Positions 25,416-61,190 of a stretch of 64,000 nt of DNA are shown in pieces. Within the stretch, counting starts at the first letter, position 1; each line of letters starts with the position of its first letter. The translations under genes were made by a program, and so were the position numbers. This stretch comes from Cyclobacteriaceae bacterium (GTDB lineage Bacteria > Bacteroidota > Bacteroidia > Cytophagales > Cyclobacteriaceae): contig JAHCHY010000022.1 in NCBI GenBank assembly GCA_026129485.1, forward strand, positions 1-64,000, in the 5' to 3' direction. The notes under the pieces were generated by a model. The model had not been told where the DNA came from, did no database searches, and saw only the letters and a list, made by a program, of their open reading frames with translations.

Positions 25416-26486
25416 ATGGACAAAAAAAGCAAAAAATTCCTTTTCGATTATTTAAACAATGCTTCACCCACCGGTTTTGAATCGGCCGGGCAGCAGATAT
25501 GGTTAGACTACATCAAGCCTTACACCAGCGATTACATGGTGGATGTATATGGCACGGCCGTAGGCGTTATAAATCCCAAAGCCGGCTACAAGGTGGTGAT
25601 TGAAGCCCATGCCGATGAGATCTCGTGGTTTGTAAACTATATTACCGATGAAGGCTACATCTATGTGCGCAGAAACGGTGGCTCCGATCACCAGATCGCG
25701 CCTTCCATGCGCGTAAATATTTATGGCGATAAGGGAGTTGTAAAAGGTGTGTTCGGCTGGCCGGCCATTCACGTGCGTGATGCCGGCAAGGAAGAGACGC
25801 CAACCCTCAAAAATATTTTCATCGATATCGGTGCCGAATCCAAAAAGGAAGTAGAAGCTATGGGGGTACATGTAGGTTCTGTAGCCGTGTTTGAAGATGA
25901 GTTGATTGAGCTGAATAAAAACTACTTAACCGGCCGCGCGTTGGATAACCGTATGGGCGGCTTTATGATTGCCGAGGTAGCACGCAGGCTCAGCGAAAAC
26001 AAAAAAAAGCTTCCGTTCTGTTTGTATGTGGTAAATGCCGTGCAGGAGGAAATAGGCTTGCGTGGTGCTGAAATGATTTCGCGCAGGCTGAAACCCGACC
26101 TGGCTATTTGTACCGATGTAACGCACGATACGCAATCGCCCATGTACAACAAGAAAGAGAGCGGTAACCTGAAATGCGGCCTCGGCCCGGTGTTGTGCTA
26201 CGGCCCTGCCGTGCAGAACAATGTGCTGAAGATGATTATTGATGTGGCGGAGAAGAAGAAGATACCGTTCCAGCGCCAGGCGGTATCGCGCTCTACCGGA
26301 ACAGATACCGATTCATTTGCCTACTCAGCCGAAGGAGTTGCTTCCGCATTGATTTCGCTTCCGCTCAAGTACATGCACACTACGGTTGAAACCGTGCATA
26401 AGGACGATGTGGATAATGTGATCAACCTGATTTATGAAACCCTGCTGCAGGTTAAGCCGGGACGTGATTTCAGATATATTAAATAG
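25416..26486 (+). CDS. M42 family metallo-aminopeptidase
   Basis: 356 residues, full length for the M42 (glutamyl aminopeptidase / FrvX-like) family. The dinuclear metal site is intact: A-H-A-D-E (His/Asp), A-L-D-N-R-M-G (Asp), Q-E-E-I-G-L-R-G (the two glutamates), C-T-D-V-T-H and the C-terminal M-H-T-T-V-E histidine. No signal peptide, so cytoplasmic, where such tetrahedral peptidases trim peptides. A long hairpin (26483-26567) begins at its stop codon and separates it from the next gene. Confidence 0.93.
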   Translation: MDKKSKKFLFDYLNNASPTGFESAGQQIWLDYIKPYTSDYMVDVYGTAVGVINPKAGYKVVIEAHADEISWFVNYITDEGYIYVRRNGGSDHQIAPSMRVNIYGDKGVVKGVFGWPAIHVRDAGKEETPTLKNIFIDIGAESKKEVEAMGVHVGSVAVFEDELIELNKNYLTGRALDNRMGGFMIAEVARRLSENKKKLPFCLYVVNAVQEEIGLRGAEMISRRLKPDLAICTDVTHDTQSPMYNKKESGNLKCGLGPVLCYGPAVQNNVLKMIIDVAEKKKIPFQRQAVSRSTGTDTDSFAYSAEGVASALISLPLKYMHTTVETVHKDDVDNVINLIYETLLQVKPGRDFRYIK

Positions 26487-26567
26487 TCTTTAGTCAATAG
26501 TAGATAGTCTTTAGTAGATGCCATTGTGTAAACATCTACTGACTATGGACTATTGACTAAAGACTAT
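26483..26567. repeat. long intergenic dyad built from reiterated GACTATT/GACTAAA words
   Basis: Outer arms of 19 bp are perfect complements: ATAGTCTTTAGTCAATAGT at 26483-26501 and its reverse complement at 26549-26567. Nested inside are ATAGTC (26504-26509) with GACTAT (26541-26546) and AGTAGATG (26513-26520) with CATCTACT (26533-26540), leaving a 12-nt loop. The whole 85 bases can fold into one hairpin that fills almost all of the gap between two co-directional genes. It may act as a terminator, mRNA stabiliser or a mobile repeat. Confidence 0.85.
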
Positions 26568-26579
26568 CGACTATTTCAG

Positions 26580-27350
26580 ATGGAATTTACCGATCAGCTT
26601 TCCCGAAAGATTGATGTTTCATTTCCGCCACAGCGTATTATCTCGCTGGTGCCTTCTCAAACAGAATTACTATTTGATCTTGGTTTGAGTAACCGTGTAG
26701 CAGGTGTTACCAAATTTTGTATTCATCCTGCGGGGACGGTTAAGAGCAAAACCATTATAGGCGGTACAAAGAATTTCCGGTTCGATGTGATTGATCAGCT
26801 AAAGCCGGACTTAATCATTGGCAACAAGGAAGAAAACTACATAGAAGGTATTAGCATACTGGAACAAAAATACCCGGTATGGATGAGCGATATTTCGGAT
26901 TACGAAAGCGCTTTAGCGATGATCAGGGGAGTGGCTGCAGTTACAGGTACAACGGAACGCGGTAAAAAAATAATTTCAACTATCAACCGGGCATTTGAGC
27001 GTTTGCCTGAGTTTCCGCGCAAGCGTGTGTTGTATTTGATCTGGCATCCGTGGATGGCAGCAGGTACCGGCACATTTATTCACAGCATGCTTTCGCGATT
27101 GGGTTTGATCAATGTAGTGGAGGGTAGCCGTTACCCTGAGCTTTCAGAAGCAGCTATTCGGCAATTAAACCCGGATGTTGTATTGTTATCGTCAGAGCCG
27201 TTTCCGTTTAAAGCCCATCATGAAAACTCCATCAGGCAACTATTGCCTCATGCAAAGGTTGTGCATGTGGATGGAGAATTGTTTTCGTGGTATGGCAGCC
27301 GGATGGCAAAAGCGCCAGCTTACTTTGCTTCTTTACTTCCGGTTATCTGA
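26580..27350 (+). CDS. BtuF-like helical-backbone metal/cobalamin-binding protein, no signal peptide
   Basis: 256 residues from ATG 26580; the longer frame begins at a TTG inside the preceding hairpin and is rejected. The fold is that of cobalamin or iron-complex substrate-binding proteins: P-Q-R-I-I-S-L-V-P-S-Q-T-E at the start of lobe 1, a long linking helix (about 120-145) and L-N-P-D-V-V-L-L in lobe 2. Unusually there is no signal peptide or lipobox, and no ABC permease or ATPase is nearby, so a periplasmic transport role is doubtful. A cytoplasmic ligand-binding role is inference. Confidence 0.82.
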   Translation: MEFTDQLSRKIDVSFPPQRIISLVPSQTELLFDLGLSNRVAGVTKFCIHPAGTVKSKTIIGGTKNFRFDVIDQLKPDLIIGNKEENYIEGISILEQKYPVWMSDISDYESALAMIRGVAAVTGTTERGKKIISTINRAFERLPEFPRKRVLYLIWHPWMAAGTGTFIHSMLSRLGLINVVEGSRYPELSEAAIRQLNPDVVLLSSEPFPFKAHHENSIRQLLPHAKVVHVDGELFSWYGSRMAKAPAYFASLLPVI

Positions 27351-27353
27351 CAT

Positions 27354-28010
27354 TTATTTTTGCAATGCAAACGTAGTAAAGGCCCGGTTCACCATTTCCC
27401 CGGTTTTGCTTTTGATGTATTCCGTTTGCGTATCGGTATCGAGAATTTTAAAAGCCGTTGTGCTAACCAATCGGGTTAGCTTTTCATTATCGTAAAGCTC
27501 AAAGCCGAATTGAGTAAAAGGCAGTTGTTCCATGAAAGATTTCTGCGCAAAGGTAATGGCTGCAATTCCCGTTGGTTTAAGAACGCGATATAGTTCCGAT
27601 AAAAGCACTTCAGGGTTGCTCCAGAAGTAAATCGTGTTTACCGTAAAAATCCTGTCGAATGTGTTTTCGGAAAATGGAATAGCCACGCCATCATACAAAT
27701 GAAAGTATGCCTGCCGGGTAGTAACGAAAGTGTTGTTTATCGACTGCGCTTCCTGGTGCATCAACCCGGATATTTCCAGTCCGTGGTAAACTAAGTTTTT
27801 TGCTTTGTCGAGCAGGAAAGATAAATGCCCGCCATTTCCATGACCTAATTCCAGGATAACATTACCATCAGCTACATTTAATTGACTGATGGAATGGTAT
27901 GTCATCCGGATGTTGGTTTCATTCATCATGTCAGCAATCTCCACACCTTTTTTTCCGGTGGGTTGCCTTAGCTGCGATGCCAGCTCTTCCAGATCCTGTT
28001 CGGTCGCCAT
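27354..28010 (-). CDS. class I SAM-dependent methyltransferase
   Basis: 218 residues from ATG 28010, which lies 4 bp after the aroA stop; a longer frame to 28040 would overlap aroA. The SAM-binding motif I is V-I-L-E-L-G-H-G-N-G-G-H, followed by the motif II acidic residue in H-G-L-E-I-S. The substrate is unknown. Tight coupling to aroA suggests co-translation rather than a shared pathway. Its stop is only 3 bp from that of the convergent binding-protein gene. Confidence 0.85.
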   Translation of the reverse strand: MATEQDLEELASQLRQPTGKKGVEIADMMNETNIRMTYHSISQLNVADGNVILELGHGNGGHLSFLLDKAKNLVYHGLEISGLMHQEAQSINNTFVTTRQAYFHLYDGVAIPFSENTFDRIFTVNTIYFWSNPEVLLSELYRVLKPTGIAAITFAQKSFMEQLPFTQFGFELYDNEKLTRLVSTTAFKILDTDTQTEYIKSKTGEMVNRAFTTFALQK

Positions 28011-28014
28011 TCGA

Positions 28015-29247
28015 TTAGTTTTCGGTAACGGGTATGCCAACAGATTTTACATCATCCCAAAATCCCGGGTAAGATTTATTCACAACAGCAGGATCGTTAA
28101 TCTTCAGGTCGGTAAGGGTTGCCCACGGTGCAAAGCCCATCGCCATACGATGATCGTGATAGGTGTCTATCGTAATTTCGGTTGCCGGAATTTTTCCGGG
28201 TGTTAAAATCCATTTGCCTGTAGAGGGTTCTGTTAGCGTAGCGCCCACTTTGGCAATTTCGTTTTGAAGGGCAGCAATGCGATCCGTTTCTTTAATGCGT
28301 AAGCTTTCAAGACCGGTGAACTCACCTGCTATACCTTTTACCGCACATACCGGAACTACCGTCTGGGCCAAGTCGGGGCAGTCTTTAAAACCCCACATCA
28401 GGTTTGTGGCTGATTCTTGTTTGCTAAGTACAAGCCGGTTGTCTTTAAATGCAGAACGTACCCCTAATTTTTCCATAATGGCAGCGATTACCCGGTCGCC
28501 CTGCAGTGATTCAGGCGAAACATTAGGCAACGTGATTTCGGCTTGTTGTGCCAGTGCGGTAAATCCATACCAGTAGCTGATGGCCGACCAGTCTGCCTCC
28601 ACCACAACATGGCTGGTCTTGTATTTAGCCGGGTCAATACGAATGGTTTGCTCACTCAGGTTAATATCGGGCCGCACCCCGAATTGCTCCATCAACGAGG
28701 CAGTCATTTCGATGTACGGCACACTCCCGATCTTCCCTGTAAGGGTAAGAGTGAGCCCCTGTGGCAGCGTGGGGGCAAGCATCATTAATGCAGAAATATA
28801 CTGGCTGCTTATATGGCCGGGTATGGTAAGTGTTGCTGTTTGTTGTTTAACAAACCCTTTTGTTTCGATGGGCGGGAAGCCTTCCTTTTCGAGGTAGTTA
28901 ATCTGTGCGCCCAGCATGCGTAAGGCATCCACCAAAATACCGATAGGGCGCTCTTTCATACGGGTCGTACCGGTAAGGATTTTGTTTTGATTGGTAAGCG
29001 TAAAATATGCTGTTAAAAACCGCATGGTAGTGCCGGCATCCAGCACGTCAATAATTTTGTGAGGGCCGCCAACCAGGTTGGTCATTAAAACAGTATCGCG
29101 TGCGTCTGAAAGATTGCTAACGGTCGATTGTTCCCCGCTAAGGGCTTTTAAAATCAACGCCCGGTTACTAATGCTTTTGGATGAAGAGAGCTTATGGATG
29201 GTGCCGCTGAGATGCTGAGTCTTTTTCAGGTGGAGATACGAAGTCAA
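28015..29247 (-). CDS. aroA: 3-phosphoshikimate 1-carboxyvinyltransferase (EPSP synthase)
   Basis: 410 residues, slightly short for the family (about 430) but complete, with the N-terminal S-S-S-K-S-I-S-N-R-A-L motif, the D-A-G-T-T-M-R-F-L-T substrate loop and the C-terminal D-H-R-M-A-M motif. It joins shikimate-3-phosphate and PEP in the shikimate pathway. The start is TTG at 29247: no ATG or GTG lies between it and the in-frame stop near 29281, and the next Met would delete the active-site lysine. aroB lies just beyond the small YtxH-like gene. Confidence 0.95.
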   Translation of the reverse strand: MTSYLHLKKTQHLSGTIHKLSSSKSISNRALILKALSGEQSTVSNLSDARDTVLMTNLVGGPHKIIDVLDAGTTMRFLTAYFTLTNQNKILTGTTRMKERPIGILVDALRMLGAQINYLEKEGFPPIETKGFVKQQTATLTIPGHISSQYISALMMLAPTLPQGLTLTLTGKIGSVPYIEMTASLMEQFGVRPDINLSEQTIRIDPAKYKTSHVVVEADWSAISYWYGFTALAQQAEITLPNVSPESLQGDRVIAAIMEKLGVRSAFKDNRLVLSKQESATNLMWGFKDCPDLAQTVVPVCAVKGIAGEFTGLESLRIKETDRIAALQNEIAKVGATLTEPSTGKWILTPGKIPATEITIDTYHDHRMAMGFAPWATLTDLKINDPAVVNKSYPGFWDDVKSVGIPVTEN

Positions 29248-29342
29248 ACCGGTGTTCGTTAAGTGAGTGTTAAAAATAATTTAATGGAAGATTTTTTAAG
29301 AGTCGCTGAAACATTTTAATTTCAAATGGAGTTTTATTTGGT

Positions 29343-29534
29343 ATGACAACATCTAAAAAAATCATGATCGGACTGGGGGTTGCAGGCGGGGCCTTGCTGG
29401 CTGCCTGGCTGCTTACGGGCGAACGGGGGAAAAAGACCAAAGAATTTATTTCTAAAAAGGCTGACGATCTGAAGCAGGCTTTCAACAAGAAGCAAGAGGT
29501 AAAAATTGAAGATACAGACGCGCATTATGTATAA
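29343..29534 (+). CDS. YtxH-like small membrane protein
   Basis: 63 residues: a glycine/alanine-rich membrane helix (about 7-25) then a Lys-rich amphipathic stretch, as in YtxH-domain or gas-vesicle-like stress proteins. It runs opposite to aroA and aroB, fills the gap between them and its last 10 bp overlap the 3' end of aroB. Function unknown. Short, but its composition and shape make it a credible gene. Confidence 0.65.
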   Translation: MTTSKKIMIGLGVAGGALLAAWLLTGERGKKTKEFISKKADDLKQAFNKKQEVKIEDTDAHYV

Positions 29535-30559
29535 GCCGACTGGTAATAATTCAGTGAAGCGTCTATTTCCTCTATCGTAGCTTTAATATCCCACCGGGCT
29601 TTGCCAATTCCATCGGGCAGGGCCATCAGAATCTCATTGCCTTTATTTTTCTTGTCTTGCAGCACCAGGTCGAAAATTACCTTTCGGTTGGCTGGCAGGT
29701 TTACTACCGGATATACGGTTTTAATGTACGCGGTAATTTCATCGCGTTCGGAAGCGTTCAGCAGGTTTTTTTCGGCAGCAATGGCGGCTTCGGCAATCAT
29801 GCCGACAGCAATGGCCTCGCCATGAAAAATACGATGGCCGGTTTCGAGGAAATAGCTTTCCAAGGCATGGCCCACCGTATGCCCGAAATTCAAAATTTTC
29901 CGAAGTCCTTTTTCTTTCGAATCGGTGGCTACCACGCCCCGTTTAAAATCTACGGAGTGCGTGAGCAGCGTTTCCCAGTCCTGGCCGGCTAATGGTTTCT
30001 TCCGCAAGACATTCCACATGGCCTGGTCTGAGATGATGCAGTGCTTGATCACTTCGGCAAAGCCCGAACGCAGCTCCCGTTCCGGTAATGTTTTTAGAAA
30101 TGCAGGGCTGATGAGGGTAGCCACTGGTTCGCAAAAAACGCCAATGTGGTTTTTGAACCCCATGAAATCAATACCCAGCTTACCGCCTATGCTGGCATCT
30201 GACTGGGCCAGCAAAGTGGTGGGCATCAGGACAAAGTCGATACCGCGTTTGTATGTTGCGGCACAAAACCCACCCAGGTCCCCCAAAACTCCTCCACCGG
30301 TTATCCATACTAAGCTGTGCCGGTCGAACCGCAGTTTTGTTAGTTCCCCCCATACGTATGTGCAGGTATCCAGGTTCTTTTGTTCTTCGCCAGCTTTTAT
30401 GGTGATGACCTGGTGGTTCGGAAGATTTTTACCAATAAGCGGATAACAATCGCGGACGGTATTTTCATCGGCAAGCACAACCACCTGCGAGTATGTAACA
30501 CGGGCAAAAAAATCTGAAATCAGTTCGGCTGGCTGTTGCCGGATAGCTATCTGTGGCAT
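29525..30559 (-). CDS. aroB: 3-dehydroquinate synthase
   Basis: 344 residues from ATG 30559; a TTG 18 bp upstream also keeps the frame open but is not needed. Family motifs are visible: the NAD-binding G-G-G-V-L-G-D-L-G-G, the zinc ligand stretch K-H-C-I-I-S-D, and the two histidine motifs F-G-H-T-V-G-H-A and H-G-E-A-I-A. It converts DAHP to 3-dehydroquinate, the second shikimate step, and lies close to aroA on the same strand. Confidence 0.96.
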   Translation of the reverse strand: MPQIAIRQQPAELISDFFARVTYSQVVVLADENTVRDCYPLIGKNLPNHQVITIKAGEEQKNLDTCTYVWGELTKLRFDRHSLVWITGGGVLGDLGGFCAATYKRGIDFVLMPTTLLAQSDASIGGKLGIDFMGFKNHIGVFCEPVATLISPAFLKTLPERELRSGFAEVIKHCIISDQAMWNVLRKKPLAGQDWETLLTHSVDFKRGVVATDSKEKGLRKILNFGHTVGHALESYFLETGHRIFHGEAIAVGMIAEAAIAAEKNLLNASERDEITAYIKTVYPVVNLPANRKVIFDLVLQDKKNKGNEILMALPDGIGKARWDIKATIEEIDASLNYYQSAYT

Positions 30560-30633
30560 ATTAATTCTTGCGAACAAAGTACGGGAATTATTGTATTTAA
30601 GATGAGCGGTCTGTTAAAAATCCAGTGCAATCT

Positions 30634-30657: not shown

Positions 30658-31842
30658 ATGGAAATCCGACCGCAAATCCAGTTTGACGATACCGAAGTAG
30701 CATTTTCCTATAAGTCTGACAAGGAATTAAAGAAGGCTCGCTTTATTTTTTCACTGGTCAATCATCCGTGGATTTCGGGCGTGGCCACAGGCTTGGCGAA
30801 GGCAGGATTGGCGCTAAAGCTCCCTGTTAAGGGCCTTATCCGCTCAACGGTTTTTGAGCATTTTTGCGGAGGCGAAACCATCGAACAAAGCGACCGCACT
30901 ATTCAGACCCTGAATCGGTTTCATGTTGGAGCTATCCTGGATTTTTCAGCCGAAGGTGCGCACGATGAAGCAGGGTTTGATCAGACCACGGAAGAAATTC
31001 TCAGGACGGTTGAAAAGGCAAAAGGTAATCCTGCTATTCCGTTCACCGTGTTTAAGTGTACCGGTTTAGCCACCATGCCTTTGCTGGAGAAGGTACAAAA
31101 CAGGGAGCCGCTCACGGCACAGGAGCAGGAAGCCTTTCAGCATTTTCACGACCGGGTGGAGCGTATCTGTGCGCGTGCATTTGAATACCAGGTACCCGTA
31201 ATGATTGATGCAGAAGATAGCTGGATACAAAACCCGATTGACGAGGTGGCCCGCGAAATGATGCGCAGGTTCAATCAAAAGCAGGCCATTGTATTCAATA
31301 CATTTCAGATGTACCGGAAAGATATGCCCGGTAACATGAGAAATGCGTTTCATGATGCAGCTATGCACAATTATTTTTTGGGTGTAAAGATGGTACGCGG
31401 TGCATATATGGAAAAAGAAGCTGATCGCGCGGCAAAGCTTGGCTATGAAAACCCCATCTGGCCTAACAAGCAGGCTACTGATGATGCTTTTAATAAGAGC
31501 CTCGCTTTCTGCTTAGATAATAAGCAGCGTATAAGCTTAGTGTGCGGCTCGCATAACGAGTACAGCAACCAATATTTAACCGTGCTGATGGAAAAACATG
31601 GTTTAAAGAATAATGACAGCCGGGTCTGGTTTGCCCAACTGCTGGGTATGAGCGATAATATTTCATTTAACCTGGCCAAAGCAGGCTATAACGTAGCCAA
31701 GTACGTGCCCTATGGCCCTGTAGAATTGGTAATGCCTTATTTGATACGAAGGGCAGAGGAAAACACCTCCGTTGCCGGACAAAGCAGCCGGGAGCTTACG
31801 CTTATCAGGAAAGAGATTGCCCGAAGAAAAAATAAGCAGTAA
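30658..31842 (+). CDS. proline dehydrogenase
   Basis: 394 residues of the single-domain PRODH type with an FAD-binding TIM barrel. Key segments are V-P-V-M-I-D-A-E-D-S, the K-M-V-R-G-A-Y-M-E-K-E strand and the closing R-R-A-E-E-N-T-S motif, where the arginines bind the proline carboxylate. It oxidises proline to pyrroline-5-carboxylate, passing electrons to quinone at the membrane. P5C dehydrogenase is not in the window. A repeat-type hairpin (31836-31861) overlaps its stop codon. Confidence 0.94.
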   Translation: MEIRPQIQFDDTEVAFSYKSDKELKKARFIFSLVNHPWISGVATGLAKAGLALKLPVKGLIRSTVFEHFCGGETIEQSDRTIQTLNRFHVGAILDFSAEGAHDEAGFDQTTEEILRTVEKAKGNPAIPFTVFKCTGLATMPLLEKVQNREPLTAQEQEAFQHFHDRVERICARAFEYQVPVMIDAEDSWIQNPIDEVAREMMRRFNQKQAIVFNTFQMYRKDMPGNMRNAFHDAAMHNYFLGVKMVRGAYMEKEADRAAKLGYENPIWPNKQATDDAFNKSLAFCLDNKQRISLVCGSHNEYSNQYLTVLMEKHGLKNNDSRVWFAQLLGMSDNISFNLAKAGYNVAKYVPYGPVELVMPYLIRRAEENTSVAGQSSRELTLIRKEIARRKNKQ

Positions 31843-31861
31843 GCAAATTTTTGCCTACTGC
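31836..31861. repeat. hairpin overlapping the proline dehydrogenase stop, GCCTACT-word type
   Basis: GCAGTA-A-GCAAA (31836-31847) pairs with TTTGC-C-TACTGC (31850-31861), an 11-bp stem with one mismatch and a 2-nt loop. The word GCCTACT is reiterated to about 31886. The TAA stop codon lies inside the stem. Probably a terminator or one of the reiterated-word repeats seen at five other sites here. Confidence 0.65.
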
Positions 31862-31901
31862 CAATTGCCTACTGTGTACAGCCTACTTTAAGTCCTTTTG
31901 T

Positions 31902-49837: not shown

Positions 49838-49879
49838 GCGGTGCAGGTTTTGATTTAAAGATACAGGTTTGACTGAAAA

Positions 49880-52572: not shown

Positions 52573-53475
52573 ATGAGTACAAACAGCTATTTGCATTCCC
52601 CCGGCTTTCGCTTCCGGGAGGCTATGCAAAAAGAAAAGCCGCTGCAAATCGTAGGCGCCATAAACGCCAATCATGCTTTATTGGCGCGGCAGACGGGCTT
52701 CCATGCTATCTATCTTTCGGGCGGTGGTGTAGCTGCCGGCTCTCTGGGCATACCTGATCTGGGCATTACAACGCTTGAAGATGTGCTCATAGATATTCAG
52801 CGCATTACCAACGTATGTGATTTGCCGCTTTTGGTGGATGTGGATACCGGTTTTGGCCCGTCTGCATTCAATGTAGCGCGTACTGTAAAATCGTTGATTA
52901 AAGCAGGCGCTGCTGCATTGCACATAGAAGACCAGGTAGGCGCGAAACGCTGCGGGCATCGCCCCGGCAAAGAGGTAGTCAGCAAAGAAGAGATGGCGGA
53001 CAGGCTAAAGGCTGCTGTTGATGCCCGTACCGATGAGCACTTTGTAATTGGTGCAAGAACAGATGCTTTTGCAAATGAGGGCCTGGAAAAAACATTGGAA
53101 AGGGCCATAGCTTATAAAGAAGCCGGGGCCGATTTCATTTTTGCGGAAGCTGTTCCCGATTTATCCGGTTATCAAAAATTTGTGAATGCAACAGGAATCC
53201 CCGTACTGGCAAACATTACAGAGTTTGGCATGATACCCCTGTACACGGTAGATGAATTGAGGGATGCGGGAGTAGGGCTGGCTTTATACCCGTTATCTGC
53301 TTTTCGTGCGGCCAACAAAGCAGCCGAAAATGTCTATCAGCACATCCGCAAAGACGGAACCCAAAAAAATGTGTTGCACACCATGCAAACGCGGGAAGAG
53401 CTGTATAAGAATATCGGCTATCACGATTATGAGCAAAAATTAGATAACCTTTTTAAAAAGAATAAAAATGGCTGA
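52573..53475 (+). CDS. prpB: methylisocitrate lyase
   Basis: 300 residues. The active-site motif K-R-C-G-H-R-P-G-K with its catalytic cysteine is the PrpB signature, and the metal-binding D-V-D-T-G-F-G segment is present. It splits 2-methylisocitrate into pyruvate and succinate, the last step of the methylcitrate cycle. It starts the prpBCD operon and overlaps prpC by 8 bp. The 192-bp gap upstream shows no recognised regulator site and no PrpR gene is adjacent. Confidence 0.95.
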
Positions 53476-54625
53476 CAGCAAAGAAACAACAACGGCATTC
53501 AAGCCCAAGAAAAGCGTTGCGCTTTCAGGTGTGGCAGCAGGCAACACGGCTCTTTGCAGCGTGGGTAAAAGCGGGAACGATTTACATTACAGGGGATATA
53601 ACATTCTGGATCTGGCGGAGAAAGCGCAGTTTGAAGAGACCGCTTATTTACTGATTCACGGTTCGCTGCCAACGGCTGCCCGGTTAAAATCATACAAGGC
53701 AAAATTAAAAGGATTAAGAGGATTGCCGCAGGCATTAAAAAATGTATTGAAGAATCTGCCGGCAGCTTCTCACCCGATGGATGTGCTGCGTACTGCCACC
53801 TCTGTTTTGGGTTCGGTGCAACCCGAAAAAGACGACCATAATGTTGCCGGTGCGAAAGATATAGCCGATAAGCTGCTGGCTTCTTTCAGCTCCGCATTAT
53901 TGTACTGGTATCACTATACGCACAACGGAAAAGAAATAGAAGTGGAAACCGATGACGAAACCATTGGCGGGCATTTTTTGCATCTTCTGCACGGAAGAAA
54001 ACCCGCGGCATCGTGGGAAAGGGCGATGCAGATTTCGTTGAACCTGTATGCCGAGCATGAATTCAACGCCTCCACGTTTACCGGCCGGGTAATTGCCGGA
54101 ACGGGTTCCGATATTTATTCGGCCGTTACGGGAGCCATCGGAGCGTTAAGAGGGCCGAAACATGGCGGAGCTAATGAAGTGGCTTTCGACATACAAAGCC
54201 GTTACAGCTCGCCCGATGAAGCGGAAGAGGACATTCGTGAACGCCTGACCAAGAAAGAAGTGATTATCGGTTTCGGGCACCCGGTTTATACCATTTCTGA
54301 TCCGAGAAATGTAGTCATTAAAAAAGTAGCCAAAGCGCTTTCGGAAGAAGCCGGGGATATGCTGCTGTATAATATTGCCGAACGGTTGGAAACCCTGATG
54401 TGGAGTGAAAAGAAAATGTTCCCGAACCTGGACTGGTTTTCCGCAGTTTCTTATCATTTGATGGGCGTGCCTACCCTCATGTTCACACCGCTGTTTGTAA
54501 TATCAAGAGTTACCGGGTGGAGCGCTCATATCATGGAGCAAAGACAGGACGGAAAAATCATTCGTCCGAGCGCTAATTACATCGGGCCGGAGAATAAAAA
54601 ATTTGTGCCGATAGAGCATAGATGA
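53468..54625 (+). CDS. prpC: 2-methylcitrate synthase
   Basis: 385 residues of the citrate synthase family. Catalytic residues are visible in P-K-H-G-G-A-N-E (His), G-F-G-H-P-V-Y (His) and the late aspartate in N-L-D-W-F-S. Length and operon position with prpB and prpD mark it as the methylcitrate synthase, which condenses propionyl-CoA with oxaloacetate. Confidence 0.94.
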
Positions 54626-54689
54626 GTTGAAAGTGGAAGCGATATAACCGTTTTCAACTTTCAGCTATCAACTAAATGAACTTTCAACT
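54625..54689. repeat. reiterated CAACTTT-word dyad between prpC and prpD
   Basis: AGTTGAAAG at 54625-54633 can pair with CTTTCAACT at 54681-54689 (9 bp), or its first eight bases with TTTCAACT at 54652-54659. The word CAACTTT/CAACTAAA recurs across the gap. Same construction as the dyads at 26483, 57318, 58800 and 61124, with a different word. It fills the 73-bp gap inside an operon. Confidence 0.6.
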
Positions 54690-54698
54690 TTTAATTAA

Positions 54699-56147
54699 AT
54701 GAGTCGCATTTCAAATGAAAGACCGCAACCGGATAAAGTATTGGCGGATATTGCGGATTATGTATTAAGCTACGAAATCAAAAATGAGTTAGCCTGGAAA
54801 ACAGCTCACTACTGCCTGTTAGACACGATTGGTTGCGGCCTGGAAGCGTTAACCTATCCTGCCTGTACCAAGCTGTTAGGGCCTGTTGTAAAAGGTACTG
54901 TTGTGCCTGACGGGGCAAAAGTGCCGGGTACACAATTCCAGTTAGACCCGATACAGGCCGCATTTAATATAGGCGCGATTATTCGCTGGCTGGATTTTAA
55001 CGATACCTGGCTGGCGGCAGAGTGGGGCCATCCTTCGGATAACCTGGGTGGAATTTTAGCTACGGCAGACTGGTTATCCCGAACCCACATAGCCGAAGGG
55101 AAGGCTCCTTTGAAAATGAAGCAGGTGCTTGAAGCCATGATTATGGCGCACGAAATCCAGGGCGTGCTGGCTTTGGAAAACTCATTTAATAAAGCAGGGT
55201 TAGACCACGTGATCTTAGTGAAAGTCGCTTCCACTGCTGTAGTCGGAAAGCTGATCGGGCTGACCCGTGATGAATTGATCAATGCAATCTCGCTGGCATT
55301 TGTTGACGGACAATCCTTAAGAACATATCGCCACGCTCCGAATACGGGCTCTCGTAAATCCTGGGCTGCGGGGGATGCTACTTCAAGAGCTGTTCGTTTG
55401 GCATTGATAGCTAAAACCGGTGAAATGGGTTATCCGTCTGTACTGACTGCTAAAACCTGGGGATTCTATGATGTTTCTTTTAAAGGAAATGCATTCAAAT
55501 TCCAGAGAGATTACAGCTCTTATGTAATGGAAAATGTATTGTTCAAAATTTCTTTCCCTGCAGAATTTCACTCTCAAACAGCCGTGGAAGCTGCCATGAC
55601 TTTGCACGGAAAACTGAAAGCATCAGGTAAATCAACTGACGATATTAAGAAGATAACCATTCGCACCCACGAAGCGGCTATCCGCATCATTGACAAAAAA
55701 GGCCCGTTGAACAACCCGGCTGACCGCGACCACTGTATCCAGTATATGGTTGCCGTTCCATTGATCTACGGCAGACTGACGGCTGCCGATTATGAAGACA
55801 ATGTAGCTGCCGACCCAAGAATTGATGCGCTTCGTGATAAGATGGAATGTGTGGAAGATGTTCAGTTTACCAAAGATTACCACGACCCTGAAAAACGCTC
55901 CATTGCCAACGCATTGACTGTTACGTTAAATGACGGTACTGTTTTGGATGAAGTAGAAGTTGAATATCCTATCGGGCACAAGCGCAGAAGGGAAGAAGGC
56001 ATCCCTGAATTGATTAAAAAATATAAAATCAACCTGGCGCGGATGTTCCCGGAAAAGCAGCAAAGATCAGTATTGGAAAAAACTTTGGAATATGACAAAT
56101 TGCTGAACCTGAACGTAAACGAGTTTGTGGACGCTTTGGTAATTTAA
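54699..56147 (+). CDS. prpD: 2-methylcitrate dehydratase
   Basis: 482 residues of the MmgE/PrpD family, with D-T-I-G-C-G-L-E near the N-terminus and the late R-D-H-C-I-Q-Y segment. It dehydrates 2-methylcitrate to cis-2-methylaconitate in the second step of the cycle. The cofactor-independent PrpD type matches a pathway without AcnD, which is not seen here. queH follows after 23 bp. Confidence 0.94.
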
Positions 56148-56170
56148 GAACGAATCCATATCAATAGAAA

Positions 56171-56827
56171 ATGACTTTGACCAGGGAAAAATTAACATTG
56201 CCCGAAGGCGGAAAAAAGCTGTTGCTGCATTCCTGTTGCGCCCCCTGTTCGGGAGAAGTAATGGAGGCGATTATCGCTTCGGATATTGAGTTCGCCATTT
56301 TCTTTTACAACCCGAATATTCATCCCAAAAAGGAATACGATTTGCGCAAAGAAGAGAATATCCGCTTTGCCGAAAAGCATAGCATCCCGTTTGTAGATGC
56401 CGACTATGATGTGGATAATTGGTTTGCCAGGGCCAAAAGGATGGAAATGGAACCGGAGAGAGGCATACGCTGCACGATGTGCTTCGATATGCGTTTTGAG
56501 CGTACCGCGTTATACGCCTTTGAAAACGGCTTTGATGTTATATCCAGCTCATTAGGCATTTCGCGATGGAAGAATATGGAGCAGATCAATGATTGCGGCA
56601 TTCGCGCGGCAGCACATTACGAAGGCATTACCTACTGGACATACAACTGGCGAAAGAAGGGCGGCTCAGCCCGTATGCTGGAAATCAGTAAGCAGGAGCA
56701 ATTCTATATGCAGGAGTATTGCGGCTGTGCCTATTCTTTACGCGATACCAATAACTGGCGGGTAGAAAACGGAAGGGAAAAGATCAGGCTGGGAGAAAAA
56801 TACTATGGAATAGCAGAGGGGGAATAG
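56171..56827 (+). CDS. queH: epoxyqueuosine reductase QueH
   Basis: 218 residues with the QueH (DUF208) cysteine motifs: H-S-C-C-A-P-C-S near the start, C-T-M-C-F-D-M-R in the middle and C-G-C-A-Y near the end. It reduces epoxyqueuosine to queuosine in tRNA, replacing QueG. It ends the plus-strand run after prpD with only 23 bp spacing, so it may share the prp transcript, though the functions are unrelated. Convergent with paaD. Confidence 0.92.
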
Positions 56828-56841
56828 CCAAGAGCCGGAGC

Positions 56842-57312
56842 CTATAAAGGCTTAAACTGCTCAAACACTTCCTTACAATCATGACAATAATAAAGTGAGC
56901 GGCAAAGGGTAGGGCCGAACGGACTTTTTAATTCGGTATTGGTGCTATTGCAGCGTGGGCAGCTTGCCGTTTCTAATATTTCGAGGTCGGTAAACAGCTT
57001 GCCGTCCGGTGGAGGCGCAAGTCCGTATTTCTTTAAAGCTGCTTTTCCTTTTTCAGAGATCAGGTCTGAGCTCCACGGTTTTTCAAAAGTGATTTCAACC
57101 TTAGGATGGAAACCGTTTTTTTGTAAGGCGGCTTCCACTTCGGCTTTCATGTAGTCCATAGCCGGGCAGCCCACAAAGGTGGGTGTCATTTTTACGAGTA
57201 CCGTTTTATCCTGAACATCCACATCCGTAATCACACCCAAATCTACCAAAGACAAAACCGGAATCTCGGGGTCTTTAACGCTTTCGAGGATTTGCAGAAT
57301 GGATTCGTTCAT
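56842..57312 (-). CDS. paaD: phenylacetyl-CoA epoxidase subunit PaaD
   Basis: 156 residues. The N-terminal DUF59 (iron-sulfur assembly-like) domain has V-K-D-P-E-I-P-V-L-S-L and G-C-P-A-M; the C-terminus has a zinc-ribbon C-P-R-C then C-H-D-C. PaaD is needed to mature or assemble the epoxidase in other bacteria. It is the last gene of the operon, 101 bp after paaC, that gap being filled by a dyad repeat. Confidence 0.93.
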   Translation of the reverse strand: MNESILQILESVKDPEIPVLSLVDLGVITDVDVQDKTVLVKMTPTFVGCPAMDYMKAEVEAALQKNGFHPKVEITFEKPWSSDLISEKGKAALKKYGLAPPPDGKLFTDLEILETASCPRCNSTNTELKSPFGPTLCRSLYYCHDCKEVFEQFKPL

Positions 57313-57317
57313 GTCTG

Positions 57318-57409
57318 GTTACTGGTTTCCTGTTACCGGTTTCAAGTTTGGAATTATATTACTACTGATTTACCAATTACCAACCGCCCGGTTACAGGTA
57401 ACCGATAAC
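57318..57409. repeat. reiterated GGTTACT/CTGTTACC dyad between paaC and paaD
   Basis: GTTACTGGTTTCCTGTTACC begins the left arm (57318-57339), and the right arm 57388-57409 is its reverse complement at 18 of 22 positions. Each arm is itself two or three near-copies of a 7-9 base word. It lies almost wall to wall in the 101-bp intergenic gap of the operon. Confidence 0.7.
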
Positions 57410-57413
57410 TGAT

Positions 57414-58169
57414 TTACCACTCCGCAGTCGGGTCAATCCGGAACACCTCACTCATCTCGTCCAGCAAAGGCTGAAGGTGCTCACTGTGTTTGCCTTCACG
57501 GCCGCCATAAACGGGAGTTAGCGTTTTCCAATCGGGCAACTGAAGTTGTGTTTGATGGATTACAGATTCTATCCGTGCCAGCCATTTTTCTTTCAGGGCA
57601 GCTTCGCCTGCGAATATTTTCTGATCGATCAATTCAGCCTCATAAGGCGATGTTTCAAAAATTCCCAATGCATAGGGGAATGCAGCCTCAAGTGATTTTT
57701 GCAATCGCGTAATGCTTTCTTCCGTTGCTGAACCAAGTTGCTTCATCCAGGTGTTGGCGTGAAGCGTATGGTACCGTAGCTCACCCCGGATTTTTCGGGC
57801 TAATTGAGCGAGAGGCTCGTAAGCAGAGTTTGTTAATGCCTCAAAGCGTAAGGCTTCGGCTGTATCAAACAGGAAATGCCGGATCAGGCTAAAGTCATAT
57901 TCTTGGTTAGGCAGCTCAACTAAAATGCAATTATGAAACCGGCTGGCATTTCGTGTAAAGGCGATTGTGTCGGGATCACTTTCACCAAGTGTTTGCAACA
58001 ATGTATATAGAGCAAGACTTTGCCCTACCTTATCCTGCGCCATAGAGGAAAAGGCAATGTCTTCTTCTAACAGCGGGCCAAAGCCCGTCCACTCGGAATT
58101 ACGATGACCGAGGATCAGTTGGTCATCGGCCATTTTGTAGAGCAGCTCTTTCAGTGCGAGGTTATTCAT
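57414..58169 (-). CDS. paaC: phenylacetyl-CoA epoxidase subunit PaaC
   Basis: 251 residues, the structural ferritin-like subunit that pairs with PaaA. Typical segments are D-D-Q-L-I-L-G-H-R-N-S-E-W near the N-terminus and R-K-I-R-G-E-L-R-Y-H in the middle. It stabilises the catalytic subunit and does not itself need a full di-iron site. Separated from paaB by 23 bp. Confidence 0.93.
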   Translation of the reverse strand: MNNLALKELLYKMADDQLILGHRNSEWTGFGPLLEEDIAFSSMAQDKVGQSLALYTLLQTLGESDPDTIAFTRNASRFHNCILVELPNQEYDFSLIRHFLFDTAEALRFEALTNSAYEPLAQLARKIRGELRYHTLHANTWMKQLGSATEESITRLQKSLEAAFPYALGIFETSPYEAELIDQKIFAGEAALKEKWLARIESVIHQTQLQLPDWKTLTPVYGGREGKHSEHLQPLLDEMSEVFRIDPTAEW

Positions 58170-58192
58170 CTTTTATTTGGCAGGATTTCGTT

Positions 58193-58798
58193 TCATGATA
58201 TTAATTTTCTTTCCAAAAACTCTTTCAACTTATCCCCGCCCTTGTAATCCGAAGCATCGCGGAATTTTTTCTCAGACAAAGTTAGCCATAGCTCCTTTTC
58301 TTCGGGTGTGGTAAACCGGATGGCATCGTTGGCAATGGCCCACACATTATAAACCGTTTTTCCCGTATTGAATTGCAGCTTTGCTTCAGTCATAGCGTGC
58401 TGCGGTGTAGCGGCTTGTACCGTTCCTGCGTGCACATGCTGCCTGCCTCGCTTTGCCAGATGATAAATCTCATAAGTTTTTTTAATGCCACTTTCTCGGG
58501 TTTCCGGTATAGGGTCGTATGCATTGCTTTCACCTTCCGTAAGAGGCGATACATAGACATCGCGTGTATCCGCCACATAAAGCGAGGTGCAGGTAAACCT
58601 GCGCGTAAACGTTTCTTTAGCCAGCACCCACGCAAGTTCAATATCGGGCGCATGCACAATGCCTTCATGCTGAAACGGCTTGCCTTCTTTGGGCTGCACA
58701 AAAACCTCGAACGTTCCGAACTGATCCAACGGAGCTTTGAGAGAAACAGGCTCCTGGATTTGAGGAAGCCGGCTAACACGGGGGTCGAGAGAATTCAA
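58193..58798 (-). CDS. paaB: phenylacetyl-CoA epoxidase subunit PaaB, tandem-domain form
   Basis: 201 residues, about twice the length of E. coli PaaB. Two PaaB-like units are visible: residues 30-83 (F-E-V-F-V ... H-E-G-I-V-H-A ... S-L-Y-V-A-D) and 109-163 (Y-E-I-Y-H ... H-A-G-T-V-Q-A ... N-V-W-A-I-A). PaaB bridges PaaAC pairs in the enzyme complex. The only usable upstream start is TTG 58798 (an in-frame TGA lies 6 bp before it), and it falls at the edge of a repeat; TTG at residue 24 is an alternative. Confidence 0.88.
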   Translation of the reverse strand: MNSLDPRVSRLPQIQEPVSLKAPLDQFGTFEVFVQPKEGKPFQHEGIVHAPDIELAWVLAKETFTRRFTCTSLYVADTRDVYVSPLTEGESNAYDPIPETRESGIKKTYEIYHLAKRGRQHVHAGTVQAATPQHAMTEAKLQFNTGKTVYNVWAIANDAIRFTTPEEKELWLTLSEKKFRDASDYKGGDKLKEFLERKLIS

Positions 58799-58799
58799 A

Positions 58800-58870
58800 A
58801 TTCAAAATTTAAGATTGCTACCATAACTTCATGATTCTACATCCGTCATTCTGAATTCTAAATTTTGAAT
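58800..58870. repeat. reiterated ATTCAAA-word dyad between paaA and paaB
   Basis: ATTCAAAATTTA (58800-58811) and TAAATTTTGAAT (58859-58870) are perfect 12-bp complements, with partial pairing further in and the word ATTCAAA repeated just beyond the left arm. The left arm lies directly at the paaB start codon, so the repeat seems to have reached into the 5' end of that gene. Confidence 0.7.
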
Positions 58871-58889
58871 GTTGGAAATTACGAATCGG

Positions 58890-59876
58890 CTATGCCAATG
58901 GTGTAACGTATGCCGCCTTTGGCGATTTCAACGCTTCGCGTACCCACCTGCCGCGTGCTTCTGCAACTCTGCGCACTTCTAACCGCTCTTTATTGCAGGG
59001 CCCGTTACCGTTAATCACGCGCTTAAACTCTTCCCAGTCCGGTTCGGTGTATTCCCACTTTCCGGTTTCCGTGTTCTTTTTCAGGTTCGGATCGGGAATG
59101 GTAAAGCCCAGCTCCCATATTTTAGGAACATACATATCGAGGAACTGGTTGCGCATTTCATCGTTGGTGCCCATCTTCACTTTCCAGCGCATCAGCACTT
59201 CAGTGTGTGCCGAAATTTTATCGGATGGCCCGAAGAAGTGCATCATGGGCGGCCACCACCGGTTAAGCGCTTCCTGGAACATTTGCCGTTGTTTGGCTGT
59301 ACCACTGGCTAAATAAATTACGCAATGATGGCCGTACTTCAGGTGAAACGATTCTTCGGCACAGATTCTTTCCAGCGCACGGCAATACGGCCCGTAGCTT
59401 CCTTTCGCATTGGCTAATTGGTTTACAATGGCACCGGCATCCACCAGCCATGATATGAAGCAGCAGTCGGCCCAGGTAAACGTAGGGTAGTTAAATACAT
59501 TGGAATATTTCGATTTGCCGTTGATCAGGTCATCGATCATCTGCTCGCGCGATTTGCCCAATGTTTCGGCTGCACTATATAATAATTGTGCGTGGCCGAC
59601 TTCATCCTGCACTTTGGCCATCAGCGCCATTTTGCGCTTAAAGCCCGGGGCGCGGGTAATCCACGTGCCTTCCGGTAATGCACCTATAATTTCACTGTGC
59701 GCATGCTGCTCGATCATGCGGATGAGCTGCTTACGGTAGAGCTGCGGCATCCAGTCTGTAGGCTCAATTTTTTCGCCCCGCGCAATGCGGGCTTCAAACG
59801 CTGCCAGCTTAACCGGGTCTTCCTGCGATAAGCTATCGGTTTTAATCCCTTCAAAAGTATTTCCGCCACCGTACAT
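58890..59876 (-). CDS. paaA: phenylacetyl-CoA epoxidase catalytic subunit PaaA
   Basis: 328 residues. The di-iron ligands expected for PaaA are in E-Q-H-A-H-S-E, E-V-G-H-A-Q and [10 protein letters not shown]. It epoxidises the ring of phenylacetyl-CoA with PaaB, PaaC and the reductase PaaE; paaE is not in this window, nor are paaG, paaZ or paaK. An exact TAnnTTTG box lies 32 bp upstream. Confidence 0.95.
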
Positions 59877-59907
59877 AAAATTGAATTATTTGCCTAACAA
59901 TCGTTTG

Positions 59908-59915
59908 CAAATATA
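59908..59915 (-). promoter_or_regulatory. candidate -7 promoter element (TATATTTG) for paaABCD
   Basis: TATATTTG on the minus strand, an exact TAnnTTTG match, begins 39 bp and ends 32 bp upstream of the paaA ATG, in the gap after the TetR gene. This lets the paa operon be transcribed independently of its regulator. Confidence 0.5.
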
Positions 59916-59967
59916 ACAGTTATCGCCCGAAGAAGGTCAGGTAAGGCGGGTAATAATGTGATCGAAC

Positions 59968-60552
59968 CTATTTTTTCAGGCCGTTCACCAGCATATCAGC
60001 TAATTGCTGCCCCAGGTCGTGGGGTACAATTTTGCTGGACGGATCGTACCACATGGGCATCCAGTTGAGGGACGAGAACAACGTCATTACCGCCAGCTTT
60101 TTGTCGATGGTGTCTTTAAACTCACCCTGCCTGGCGCCCTCTTCAATAATGCTTTTGAACCGGTTGATGTAGTTGATGCGCAGCAAAAGGAAATCGCGCA
60201 GGTAAGGCTGGCTCAGGTGGCGGTGCTCGTTCATAAACACAGCCGAAGCGGTAAGGTCTTTGGCCATTACCTGGATGTGCCCGATAATTCCGAGGCGCAG
60301 CTTTTCCGATGCCGATACATTTTGCTTTTCTACTTCGGCCAATGACTTGCGGAATTCAGCAGCCATATCGAAGCACAGGTGCTGCAGAATTTCTTCTTTC
60401 GATTTGATGTGCGAATACAAGCTCGCGGCTTCAATGCCCAGCTTCTGGGCCAGGTCGCGCATGGATGATGCCGCATAGCCTTTTTCCCGAAACAATTCGG
60501 CTGCGCTGCGTATTACCTGTTCCTTACGGGATAAATTACCTACTGCTTCCAT
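59968..60552 (-). CDS. TetR/AcrR family regulator, probable paa repressor
   Basis: 194 residues from ATG 60552; a TTG at 60576 also keeps the frame but precedes the usual start of the domain. The N-terminal helix-turn-helix is typical (A-A-E-L-F-R-E-K-G-Y then L-A-Q-K-L-G and S-L-Y-S-H-I-K-S-K-E-E), followed by a ligand-binding helical domain. It sits directly upstream of paaA on the same strand, so control of phenylacetate genes by a CoA-thioester effector is likely, as for PaaR-type TetR proteins; this is inference. Confidence 0.9.
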   Translation of the reverse strand: MEAVGNLSRKEQVIRSAAELFREKGYAASSMRDLAQKLGIEAASLYSHIKSKEEILQHLCFDMAAEFRKSLAEVEKQNVSASEKLRLGIIGHIQVMAKDLTASAVFMNEHRHLSQPYLRDFLLLRINYINRFKSIIEEGARQGEFKDTIDKKLAVMTLFSSLNWMPMWYDPSSKIVPHDLGQQLADMLVNGLKK

Positions 60553-60586
60553 GATCTGACAGAAATCACAGGCCAAGTTAAATAAT

Positions 60587-60594
60587 TAAATTTG
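60587..60594 (+). promoter_or_regulatory. candidate -7 element (TAAATTTG)
   Basis: Exact TAnnTTTG match 24 bp before the ATG at 60619, inside the 66-bp divergent region shared with the TetR gene. No clear -33 box. Confidence 0.4.
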
Positions 60595-60618
60595 ATTAAA
60601 ATTCAGAAGCGATAAAAA

Positions 60619-61113
60619 ATGAAGTTCAATTCGGTTAAGGAATATTTCTACCGGTTAAACAATACCGGCTACCAGCTTATGATGGTGCCGCTCATTCTTT
60701 TTATTTATCACTATGCCAGCGTGTACACGTTTACCTTTCGGCTGGAGCTGACAGAAACGGAAGCTTACTATGTGCTGATCGCTGCCGGTGCGCTTGCGCT
60801 GATAGTCCTAACGGCCGTTCATTTTTATGTTCGGTCTGCTGCACGGAAAATTGCCCGGCTTACCGGTTTAGGCTTAAAGCTTGAAAGGTTAGGCAGTGTG
60901 TTGATGAAGCGTTTGATTGTGCTTGCGCTGATACCGTTGCTGATGACCGTTGGATTAGTGCTTACCCACCACAATGGCTTTGCGTTCGGCTTTCTGGTTA
61001 CGTTGCTCTGGTATTTTGTAAACTGGCCAACACCATTTAAGATAAGCAGCCTGTTGCACCTGAAAGGCGATGAAAAGGAAATGGTATTAAGTAAAGGCGA
61101 GGCGTTTAAGTAA
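60619..61113 (+). CDS. membrane protein, unknown
   Basis: 164 residues with four hydrophobic helices (about 18-36, 51-73, 97-115 and 120-140). I do not recognise the family. It is divergent from the TetR gene and isolated otherwise. A perfect dyad (61133-61175) follows its stop. Confidence 0.6.
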   Translation: MKFNSVKEYFYRLNNTGYQLMMVPLILFIYHYASVYTFTFRLELTETEAYYVLIAAGALALIVLTAVHFYVRSAARKIARLTGLGLKLERLGSVLMKRLIVLALIPLLMTVGLVLTHHNGFAFGFLVTLLWYFVNWPTPFKISSLLHLKGDEKEMVLSKGEAFK

Positions 61114-61123
61114 ATGATTCCGG

Positions 61124-61190
61124 ATTCAAAGTTTAAAATTCAGGATTAAGCGTTTATCTCAATCCTGAATTTTAATCTTAAATTTTGAAT
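61124..61190. repeat. reiterated AATTCAGGATT dyad between convergent genes
   Basis: TTAAAATTCAGGATT (61133-61147) and AATCCTGAATTTTAA (61161-61175) are perfect 15-bp complements with a 13-nt loop; outside them ATTCAAA (61124-61130) pairs with TTTGAAT (61184-61190) with a 6-nt bulge. It lies between a plus-strand and a minus-strand gene and reaches the stop of the latter, so it can serve as a two-way terminator as well. Confidence 0.8.

Follow-up and report, generated by a model that had tools for sequence, protein, structure and literature searches.

The window analyzed here comprises the first 64,000 nt (positions 1 to 64,000, forward strand) of contig JAHCHY010000022.1 from the Cyclobacteriaceae bacterium assembly GCA_026129485.1, and it holds six intergenic sites at which a short word is reiterated on both sides of a dyad (Table 1). 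Five of the six gaps lie between co-directional genes and one, at 61124, between convergent genes. The sites at 26483, 31836 and 54625 start within the stop codon of the upstream gene, which encodes an M42 peptidase in the first case (Pfam) and proline dehydrogenase in the second; the site at 57318 lies within a few bases of a stop codon, and that at 58800 is closer to the downstream start. The first site spans the gap to a periplasmic-binding-protein gene (Pfam), the second precedes a gene for a class II (D, K, N) tRNA synthetase, and two sites lie within the paa gene cluster. Because gene calls came from a simple greedy ORF rule, the gap boundaries given here are approximate.

Table 1. Dyads and a related feature in the 64,000-nt window. 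D and I, direct and inverted word pairs (shuffles reaching the observed value).
Position	Feature	Location or arms	Evidence
26483..26580	dyad GACTATT/AATAGTC	arms ~26483-26515 and ~26536-26575	reiteration, inverted pairs, arm order p 0.005
31836..31887	weak dyad, word GCCTACT		not significant alone against shuffles
49838..49879	possible short extra member, weak; CAGGTTT-like words		D 0/100, I 0/100, z 3.4
54625..54702	dyad CAACTTT/AAAGTTG	between ORF 53468-54625 and MmgE/PrpD gene	z 9.3
57313..57413	dyad GGTTACT/GTAACCA; GNAACCA family member	fills paaC-paaD gap	arm order p 0.020
58792..58874	dyad of ATTCAAA	paaA-paaB gap	shuffle test and orthologous gaps
61117..61190	dyad of ATTCAAA and ATTCAGG	convergent gap, 164-aa ORF / 334-aa ORF	inverted pairs significant, direct not

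Pairs of 7-mers agreeing at 6 or more of their 7 positions, direct and inverted, were counted in the 31 window gaps of at least 40 bp and compared with 100 dinucleotide shuffles of each gap. The observed values were reached by D 1/100 and I 0/100 shuffles at 26483, by none of the 100 in either orientation at 54625 and 57318, by D 0/100 and I 2/100 at 58800, and by D 7/100 and I 0/100 at 61124. At 31836 the figures were D 15/100 and I 9/100, which is not significant for that site alone. On a combined statistic, with z-scores that are this analysis's own, four of the six sites reached z of at least 3 (9.3, 7.6, 6.7 and 3.8), and 61124 (z 2.7) and 31836 fell below that value. What the first-pass annotation reported is largely real: all six sequences lie at the positions it gave, and five of the six exceed shuffles in reiteration, symmetry or both, the exception being 31836-31886. 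TRF gave 65-100% matches and 1.9-5.4 copies at the window sites, indicating heterogeneous arrays.

Such arrays occupy about a tenth of the short gaps sampled. In a sampled fifth of the genome, 28 of 325 gaps had z of at least 4 compared with 1 in a shuffled copy, and 36 of the 325 had z of at least 3. An earlier sliding scan with 200-bp-block shuffles had given 13 peaks with a score of at least 35, 11 of them intergenic, where 0.8 were expected. The repeat unit is 7 nt. Among 358 gaps of the bacterium itself, near-repeats numbered 334 at lag 7, 337 at lag 14 and 252 at lag 21 (76, 67 and 76 after shuffling); lags 22 (130 versus 57) and 8 (122 versus 65) were next strongest, and lag 6 gave 77 versus 67. 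Near-repeats at lag 7 occurred 79 times per 10,000 positions in gaps and 15 times in coding sequence. Stretches of relatives gave 146 versus 16 shuffled at lag 7 for the genus and 79 versus 9 for the order, and period-7 arrays across four groups totaled 48 versus 3 shuffled. Gaps with z of at least 3 made up 2/67 divergent, 7/43 convergent and 27/215 co-directional gaps; divergent gaps were thus poor in arrays at this threshold (Fisher p 0.027 and 0.022), a rarity that is not significant at z of at least 4 (p 0.11 and 0.12).

The paa gaps could be followed through 80 loci, which are orthologous and not independent. The word in the paaC-paaD gap is GGTTACC in the window and in L040 but GACTAAG in L043, the sister of L040 (UFBoot 100), and the two sisters have the paaA-paaB word in common. 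The paaC-paaD gaps of L047 (51 bp) and L051 (93 bp) have near-identical ends and differ by six GATACTG-type heptads. In the convergent dyad, TTTCGGA occupies both arms in L042, compared with ATTCAA in the remainder of the clade; some arrays in L051 and L106 are without an inverted arm. That one gap can carry unlike words in sister species, together with the recurrence of word families described below, points to copying in seven-base units rather than to a conventional mobile element or terminator. The proposal of one generating process for the dyads is supported by this word change, by the lags of 7, 14 and 21, by the same architecture arising from unlike words, and by the lack of a Y1-transposase match in the genome.

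The idea that each site has its own word did not hold, as words recur in families. ATTCAAA is common to 58800 and 61124, and GCCTACT from 31836 was found again at L019:17288 and L149:15186. Across the genome, AACCAGNAACCAGNAACCA with at most 2 mismatches had 58 matches, often several per site, and AATTCAANATTCAANATT with at most 1 mismatch had 39; the reversed patterns had 0 in both cases. A 12-mer was common to 30 of 378 element pairs, against a shuffled mean of 0.92 and maximum of 3. Since words recur genome-wide, sharing between sites needs explaining. Mismatches between neighboring heptads were also uneven over the seven phases in reference-free counts that cover arrays of six words only (45/96 own and 65/167 in relatives, with the unassigned 51/96 and 102/167 left out). 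GTAACCA arrays gave 11, 38, 9, 16, 2, 29 and 20 in the bacterium (p 3e-9) and 3, 21, 7, 11, 3, 18 and 10 in relatives (p 1e-4), with a correlation of r 0.96 between the profiles. The effect for ATTCAAA had p 0.02 own and 6e-8 in relatives (profiles r 0.71), and that for GACTATT p 0.02 own and p 0.27 in relatives.

Several related ideas were set aside. A fixed-word phase test (at most 2 mismatches) was dropped because shuffled gaps gave comparable counts. Avoidance of identical neighbors in GNAACCA arrays was not borne out by the sampled arrays of the bacterium (7 same versus 7.5 expected) or by those of relatives (19 same versus 10.2 expected, driven by one uniform array). A survey of the phylum found ATTCAANx3 in 15/148 genomes (reversed control in 6) and GACTANNx3 in 14/148 (reversed control in 26); with the latter control exceeding the real pattern, a fixed phylum-wide lexicon is not supported. 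An ATTCAAA array apparently inserted into a phosphomannomutase-like gene (named by eye) of L180 proved to be native protein sequence, the gene being of equal length in 27/27 other loci among the matches listed. Five further ATTCAAA-array copies were seen within ORFs of other genomes (L172, L173, L175, L176 and L177).

As a group, the arms match as ordered reverse-complement copies. Against heptad-permuted controls, the mean score was 26.2 versus 18.1 for 24 dyads of the bacterium (12/24 with p of at most 0.05) and 30.4 versus 20.2 for 23 dyads of relatives (13/23); these dyads were pre-selected for inverted pairs, which favors the test, and singly 25/47 reached p of at most 0.05. Arm order at 54625 was not significant (p 0.114).

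Cyanobacterial STRR sequences are short heptanucleotide tandem arrays and are alike in unit, and order-matched dyad arms are not, to our knowledge, a defining feature of them. The first-pass annotation's remark that there is no named element of this kind was too strong, given the published accounts of heptamer repeats in intergenic DNA, some of them in inverted pairs (PMC4692102, PMC4679880). With a 7-nt unit, a tandem heterogeneous word, an intergenic position and few members between divergent genes, the arrays belong with heptameric repeats. The Xanthomonas GGGAATC and Nostoc GGGGA(C/T)T heptamers have the same unit, are mostly intergenic and are rare between divergent genes (PMC4692102). 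They are perfect or heterogeneous, lie nearer the upstream ORF, differ in length and sequence among related species, and form convergent (that is, inverted) array pairs in 70 cases in Xcc and 75 in Xac (PMC4692102). That study deals with one G-rich word type (PMC4692102), whereas several unlike words occur per genome here, together with order-matched arms and sister species that differ in word at one gap. TAACTGA heptamers likewise form intergenic arrays in Beggiatoaceae, Cyanobacteria and five Bacteroidetes, mostly immediately upstream of start codons, and indels between two Cyanothece strains are mostly in 7-nt increments; unlike the arrays here, they were studied as one word and are direct, with one inverted case in the BOGUAY genome (PMC4679880). 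Literature searches for an earlier description yielded these heptamer studies and, for the word AATTCAAAATTCAAAATT, a single primer in a paper on cyanobacteria (PMC2799420).

What mechanism could have built the arrays? We give about an even chance to DNA-level arrays that lengthen through 7-nt slippage and acquire their arms by template switching, wherever a gap tolerates them. Slipped-strand synthesis would duplicate a 7-nt word in 7-nt steps, and short-range template switching at the quasi-palindrome would make, and later remake, the opposite arm as a reverse-complement copy. Such re-copying would hold the two arms to one order even as their word drifted or was wholly replaced, and the arrays would persist where tolerated, mainly in gaps flanked by co-directional or convergent genes. 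Template switching has been published as a route by which stems are created and mended, an arm being corrected or newly made as the reverse complement of the other (PMC8794818); it is a mutation mechanism and not a repeat class, and heptad reiteration is an extra feature here. Slippage and template switching are the presumed agents, and the arrays are presumably near-neutral. Word families in unlinked gaps, however, are not expected from purely local slippage, and uneven mismatches over the seven phases are not predicted by uniform slippage. A less likely reading is that Bacteroidota genomes carry a 7-nt-quantized system of intergenic DNA that uses a small degenerate lexicon, each word having a fixed core and fixed variable positions. 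A putative word-specific copying activity or binding protein would spread the words among many gaps and could exchange the word of an entire dyad in place, and a gap would then retain a dyad through complete turnover of its sequence.

Selection on function offers other readings. The dyads may be 3'-end RNA hairpins, either terminators or mRNA-end stabilizers, maintained at the transcript level. By eye, L047, L051, L061, L065 and L082 have a hairpin with a T-run in the gap orthologous to 61124, where the window clade has word dyads; RNA folding of that convergent gap has z from -3.1 to -7.4 for five members of the clade, and divergent-gap arrays are few (2/67 at z of at least 3). Against this, arm differences show no transcript-strand G-U bias among dyads retained at an alignment score of at least 26 (10 versus 21 antisense in 19 co-directional dyads of the bacterium, 27 versus 31 in 16 of relatives), and there is no T-tract, with 2.11 T in the 9 nt after the 3' arm versus 2.47 expected and at least 6 T in 1/27 co-directional dyads. 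Moreover, the paaA-paaB arrays of L039, L041 and L042 fold like shuffles (z -0.1, 0.6 and -0.2), and the two sites inside the paa cluster also sit poorly with hairpins at transcript ends, a reading that we consider unlikely. The window had zero Rfam matches at the gathering score. Alternatively, a DNA- or RNA-binding protein may recognize each heptad family as an array of sites, with position-specific selection holding the core constant and allowing the other positions to vary, and with selection spreading the word over many gaps. MacGregor proposed a binding role for the TAACTGA repeats (PMC4679880), and the recurrence of word families and the phase-specific variability of ATTCAAA and of GTAACCA, the latter so alike in the bacterium and its relatives, agree with this. 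It is nevertheless unlikely given the word changes between sister species in orthologous gaps, the fading of the GACTATT phase effect in relatives, the restriction of the phase counts to six-word arrays and the mixed functions of the scanned flanking genes.

Short mobile elements of the REP or MITE type are very unlikely. Dispersed families, the near-identical copies at L149:911 and L149:3594, and presence in some relatives but absence in others at one gap would suit them, and REP and GTAG sequences are likewise dispersed palindromes, REP families having a conserved short palindrome (PMC3733652). The members here reiterate heptads; compared by eye, those of one family have heptads in common, and no common loop, end or core is apparent. 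The genome, 98% complete, had zero matches to Y1_Tnp (PF01797), compared with matches in 5/14 control genomes including E. coli, and the one word copy that seemed inserted in a coding gene was native. The recurring words may nonetheless include a dispersed-family component. Hardly credible, finally, is the idea that a telomerase-like bacterial reverse transcriptase resembling DRT10 left the arrays behind through RNA-templated synthesis of repeats; DRT10 performs ncRNA-templated addition of 9-nt tandem repeats (PMC12632851). A short fixed quantum and recurring words would fit, but the quantum of DRT10 is 9 nt and that of the arrays 7 nt, RVT_1 (PF00078) had zero matches in the genome (97.96% complete), and inverted arms would not be expected to result.

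If growth by slippage and template switching is the correct explanation, about one-tenth of the sampled short gaps are built by a 7-nt process, and a dyad can stay in place while its sequence is replaced. The usual inference of RNA function, from a hairpin that keeps its position or from arms that change in pairs, would then be undercut. Why long simple repeats in bacteria are so often heptameric is a question that has been raised (PMC4692102, PMC4679880), and defined loci such as the paaC-paaD gap, with its unlike words in sister species, would allow it to be tested.

The heptad dyads of this genome, intergenic elements whose mirror-image arms are near-copies of one 7-nt word, are real, common and beyond chance, since their counts exceed those in shuffled sequence both among the 31 window gaps tested and in a wider scan. 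When the six dyads reported by the first-pass annotation were compared with shuffles of the window gaps, five stood, each exceeding the shuffles in its direct or its inverted pairs or in the two together. The exception, taken by itself, was 31836-31886, which 15 of 100 shuffles matched for direct pairs and 9 of 100 for inverted pairs. The wider scan bore out the excess. It took in 862 kb of the 4.08-Mb, 40-contig host genome (the window, contig 15, plus 40 stretches), and a combined reiteration and dyad score of z≥4 was reached by 28 of its 325 gaps of 40-260 bp versus one in a shuffled copy (z≥2, 68 versus 7). Four of the six reported sites reached z≥3, with 61114 and 31843 below; gap edges are approximate, because the scripts placed gene ends by a simple ORF rule. 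Elements at z≥3 were rarer in divergent gaps (2/67) than in convergent (7/43) or co-directional ones (27/215), a difference without significance at z≥4.

The six reported gaps and their genes (window positions; paa letters A to D assigned from Pfam families and gene order)
Gap	Flanking genes	Setting	Basis
26483-26567	M42 peptidase gene / binding-protein gene		Pfam
31836-31886	proline dehydrogenase / class II tRNA synthetase		Pfam
54625-54689	ORF 53468 / MmgE/PrpD		Pfam
57318-57409	paaC / paaD		Pfam, gene order
58800-58870	paaA / paaB		Pfam, gene order
61124-61190		convergent gap, upstream of paaA	Pfam, gene order

The unit of the arrays is seven. Near-identical 7-mer pairs in the host's gaps peaked at lags of 7 (334 observed, 76 shuffled), 14 (337/67) and 21 (252/76), with lags 6 (77/67) and 28 (72/79) off the peak and lags 22 (130/57) and 8 (122/65) the largest of the remainder. 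The lag-7 peak recurred in stretches from relatives of the genus (146/16) and order (79/9), small samples in which a few other lags were also raised (genus lag 12, 59/15; order lag 8, 36/7), and in 80 paa loci (566/97), which are orthologous. Summed over four groups, three-copy intergenic arrays of period 7 numbered 48 versus 3 in shuffles; period 14 gave 12 versus 2, period 4 gave 37 versus 23, and periods 5, 6, 8 and 9 at most 8 each.

The annotation had assigned each site a private word, a view overturned by genome-wide families. A 12-mer was common to 30 of 378 pairs of strong elements; shuffles gave 0.92 such pairs (maximum 3), and ordinary gaps gave 2.48 (maximum 7). These links join 12 of the 28 strong elements into a GTAACCA/GGTTACT group and leave seven standing alone. 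Across the whole genome, AACCAGNAACCAGNAACCA had 58 matches with up to 2 mismatches, often several per site, and AATTCAANATTCAANATT had 39 with up to 1, the reversed patterns none. Even the weak site's word, GCCTACT, was found again at L019:17288 and L149:15186 (fetched host stretches, position after the colon). One of the pairs linked by a 12-mer consists of two near-identical GTAACCA dyads with similar flanks, L149:911-974 and L149:3594-3671, which lie 2.7 kb apart and are perhaps a local duplication. A CACATAG/CTATGTG family (L155:8346, L155:8824, L005:8973, L004:4281) has, by eye, a spacing of mostly 8-9 nt, not 7. Heptads are general over the phylum and GACTANN itself has no special status, since GACTANN triplets occurred in 14 of 148 phylum genomes and the reversed control in 26. 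In another family of the phylum, a long direct GACTACC/GACTACT array of more than 20 copies was seen (L163; genome G074, contig 9), with no inverted arm apparent in the part that was read.

Words also occur inside genes. AATTCAA arrays lie in frame within ORFs of five stretches from other genomes (L172, L173, L175, L176, L177), encoding IQNSKFK or part of it; by eye, these ORFs include DegT-like aminotransferase, isoleucyl-tRNA synthetase-like and glycosyltransferase-like genes. Three AATTCAA words in a phosphomannomutase-like gene (L180; G000 contig 34, 113487-113506) are native sequence and not an insertion, as relatives encode a similar peptide at unchanged length.

Relatives were compared at three of the six gaps; the window and 80 fetched loci gave 31 usable orthologous gaps at the convergent position, 60 at paaA-paaB and 44 at paaC-paaD. 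Window PaaA is up to 96% identical to its counterparts in metagenome genomes named as Cyclobacteriaceae, Flammeovirgaceae and Cytophagales, e.g., Bacteroidetes bacterium OLB12. A gap mostly keeps the word it inherited, yet that word can be replaced whole. Replacement is indicated by the sister loci L040 and L043 (FastTree support 1.00 for PaaA-D; UFBoot 100 for DNA of eight taxa), which have an ATTCAAG word in common in paaA-paaB and unlike words in paaC-paaD. In the latter gap, GGTTACC words occur in the window and L040, GACTAAG- or GACTATT-type words in L039, L041, L042, L043 and L044, and GATACTG, in direct orientation only, in L047 and L051, which have near-identical ends and differ by 42 bp, or six heptads. 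Twelve of the 44 paaC-paaD gaps are shorter than 30 bp, and most others lack a dyad by the test used. The convergent gap holds word dyads in the window clade and, read by eye, a hairpin and T-run in some relatives (L047, L051, L061, L065, L082). Between paaB and paaC, L039 and L042 carry inserted sequence (gaps of 973 and 971 bp) with a small ORF whose product, read by eye, begins MVTKEQIKKEVDNLPENLLDEV and looks antitoxin-like; L040, L041 and L043 have 49-199 bp there, including apparent remnants of the insert's end.

The dyad looks like a DNA-level feature. Ordered arm pairing scored 26.2 versus 18.1 with heptads permuted within each half for 24 host dyads, and 30.4 versus 20.2 for 23 dyads of relatives, with p≤0.05 in 25 of the 47 singly, in a set pre-chosen for inverted pairs and hence biased in favor of the test. 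Selection for a transcript hairpin finds no support, because the expected G-U lean on the transcript strand is missing from the arm differences (10 versus 21, host; 27 versus 31, relatives). No T-tract was found 3' of the dyads. RNA folding was mixed, with a strong signal for the clade's convergent gap (z -3.1 to -7.4) and none for the arrays that L039, L041 and L042 carry in paaA-paaB.

What process generates the elements? We give an even chance to the possibility that heptad arrays lengthen through 7-nt slippage, with template switching maintaining the dyad arms, in gaps that tolerate them. Templated synthesis of the DRT10 kind, for which one report describes 9-nt repeats (PMC12632851), and REP-type mobility are both disfavored, because genome-wide searches of the host matched neither PF00078 (reverse transcriptase) nor PF01797 (Y1 transposase). 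Slippage with template switching leaves over the recurring families and the position-specific variability. The phase counts exclude more than half of all arrays, which were assigned to no word. Among GTAACCA arrays, picked by periodicity alone, mismatches between neighboring heptads by position were 11, 38, 9, 16, 2, 29 and 20 at 12 host sites and 3, 21, 7, 11, 3, 18 and 10 at 10 sites of relatives (r 0.96), concentrated at positions 2 and 6 and almost nil at 5. ATTCAAA phases were likewise uneven (p 0.02, host; 6e-8, relatives), and GACTATT phases were uneven in the host (p 0.02) and not in relatives (p 0.27). Uneven phases are the result least expected from neutral slippage and the main reason that a binding protein or word-specific copying stays in play.

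The elements class with known heptameric intergenic repeats, of which inverted pairs (PMC4692102) and Bacteroidetes and cyanobacterial arrays (PMC4679880) have been reported. Relative to the available parts of those reports, what is new here is the presence of several degenerate words per genome, dyads matched in heptad order, and the wholesale replacement of a word at a conserved gap.
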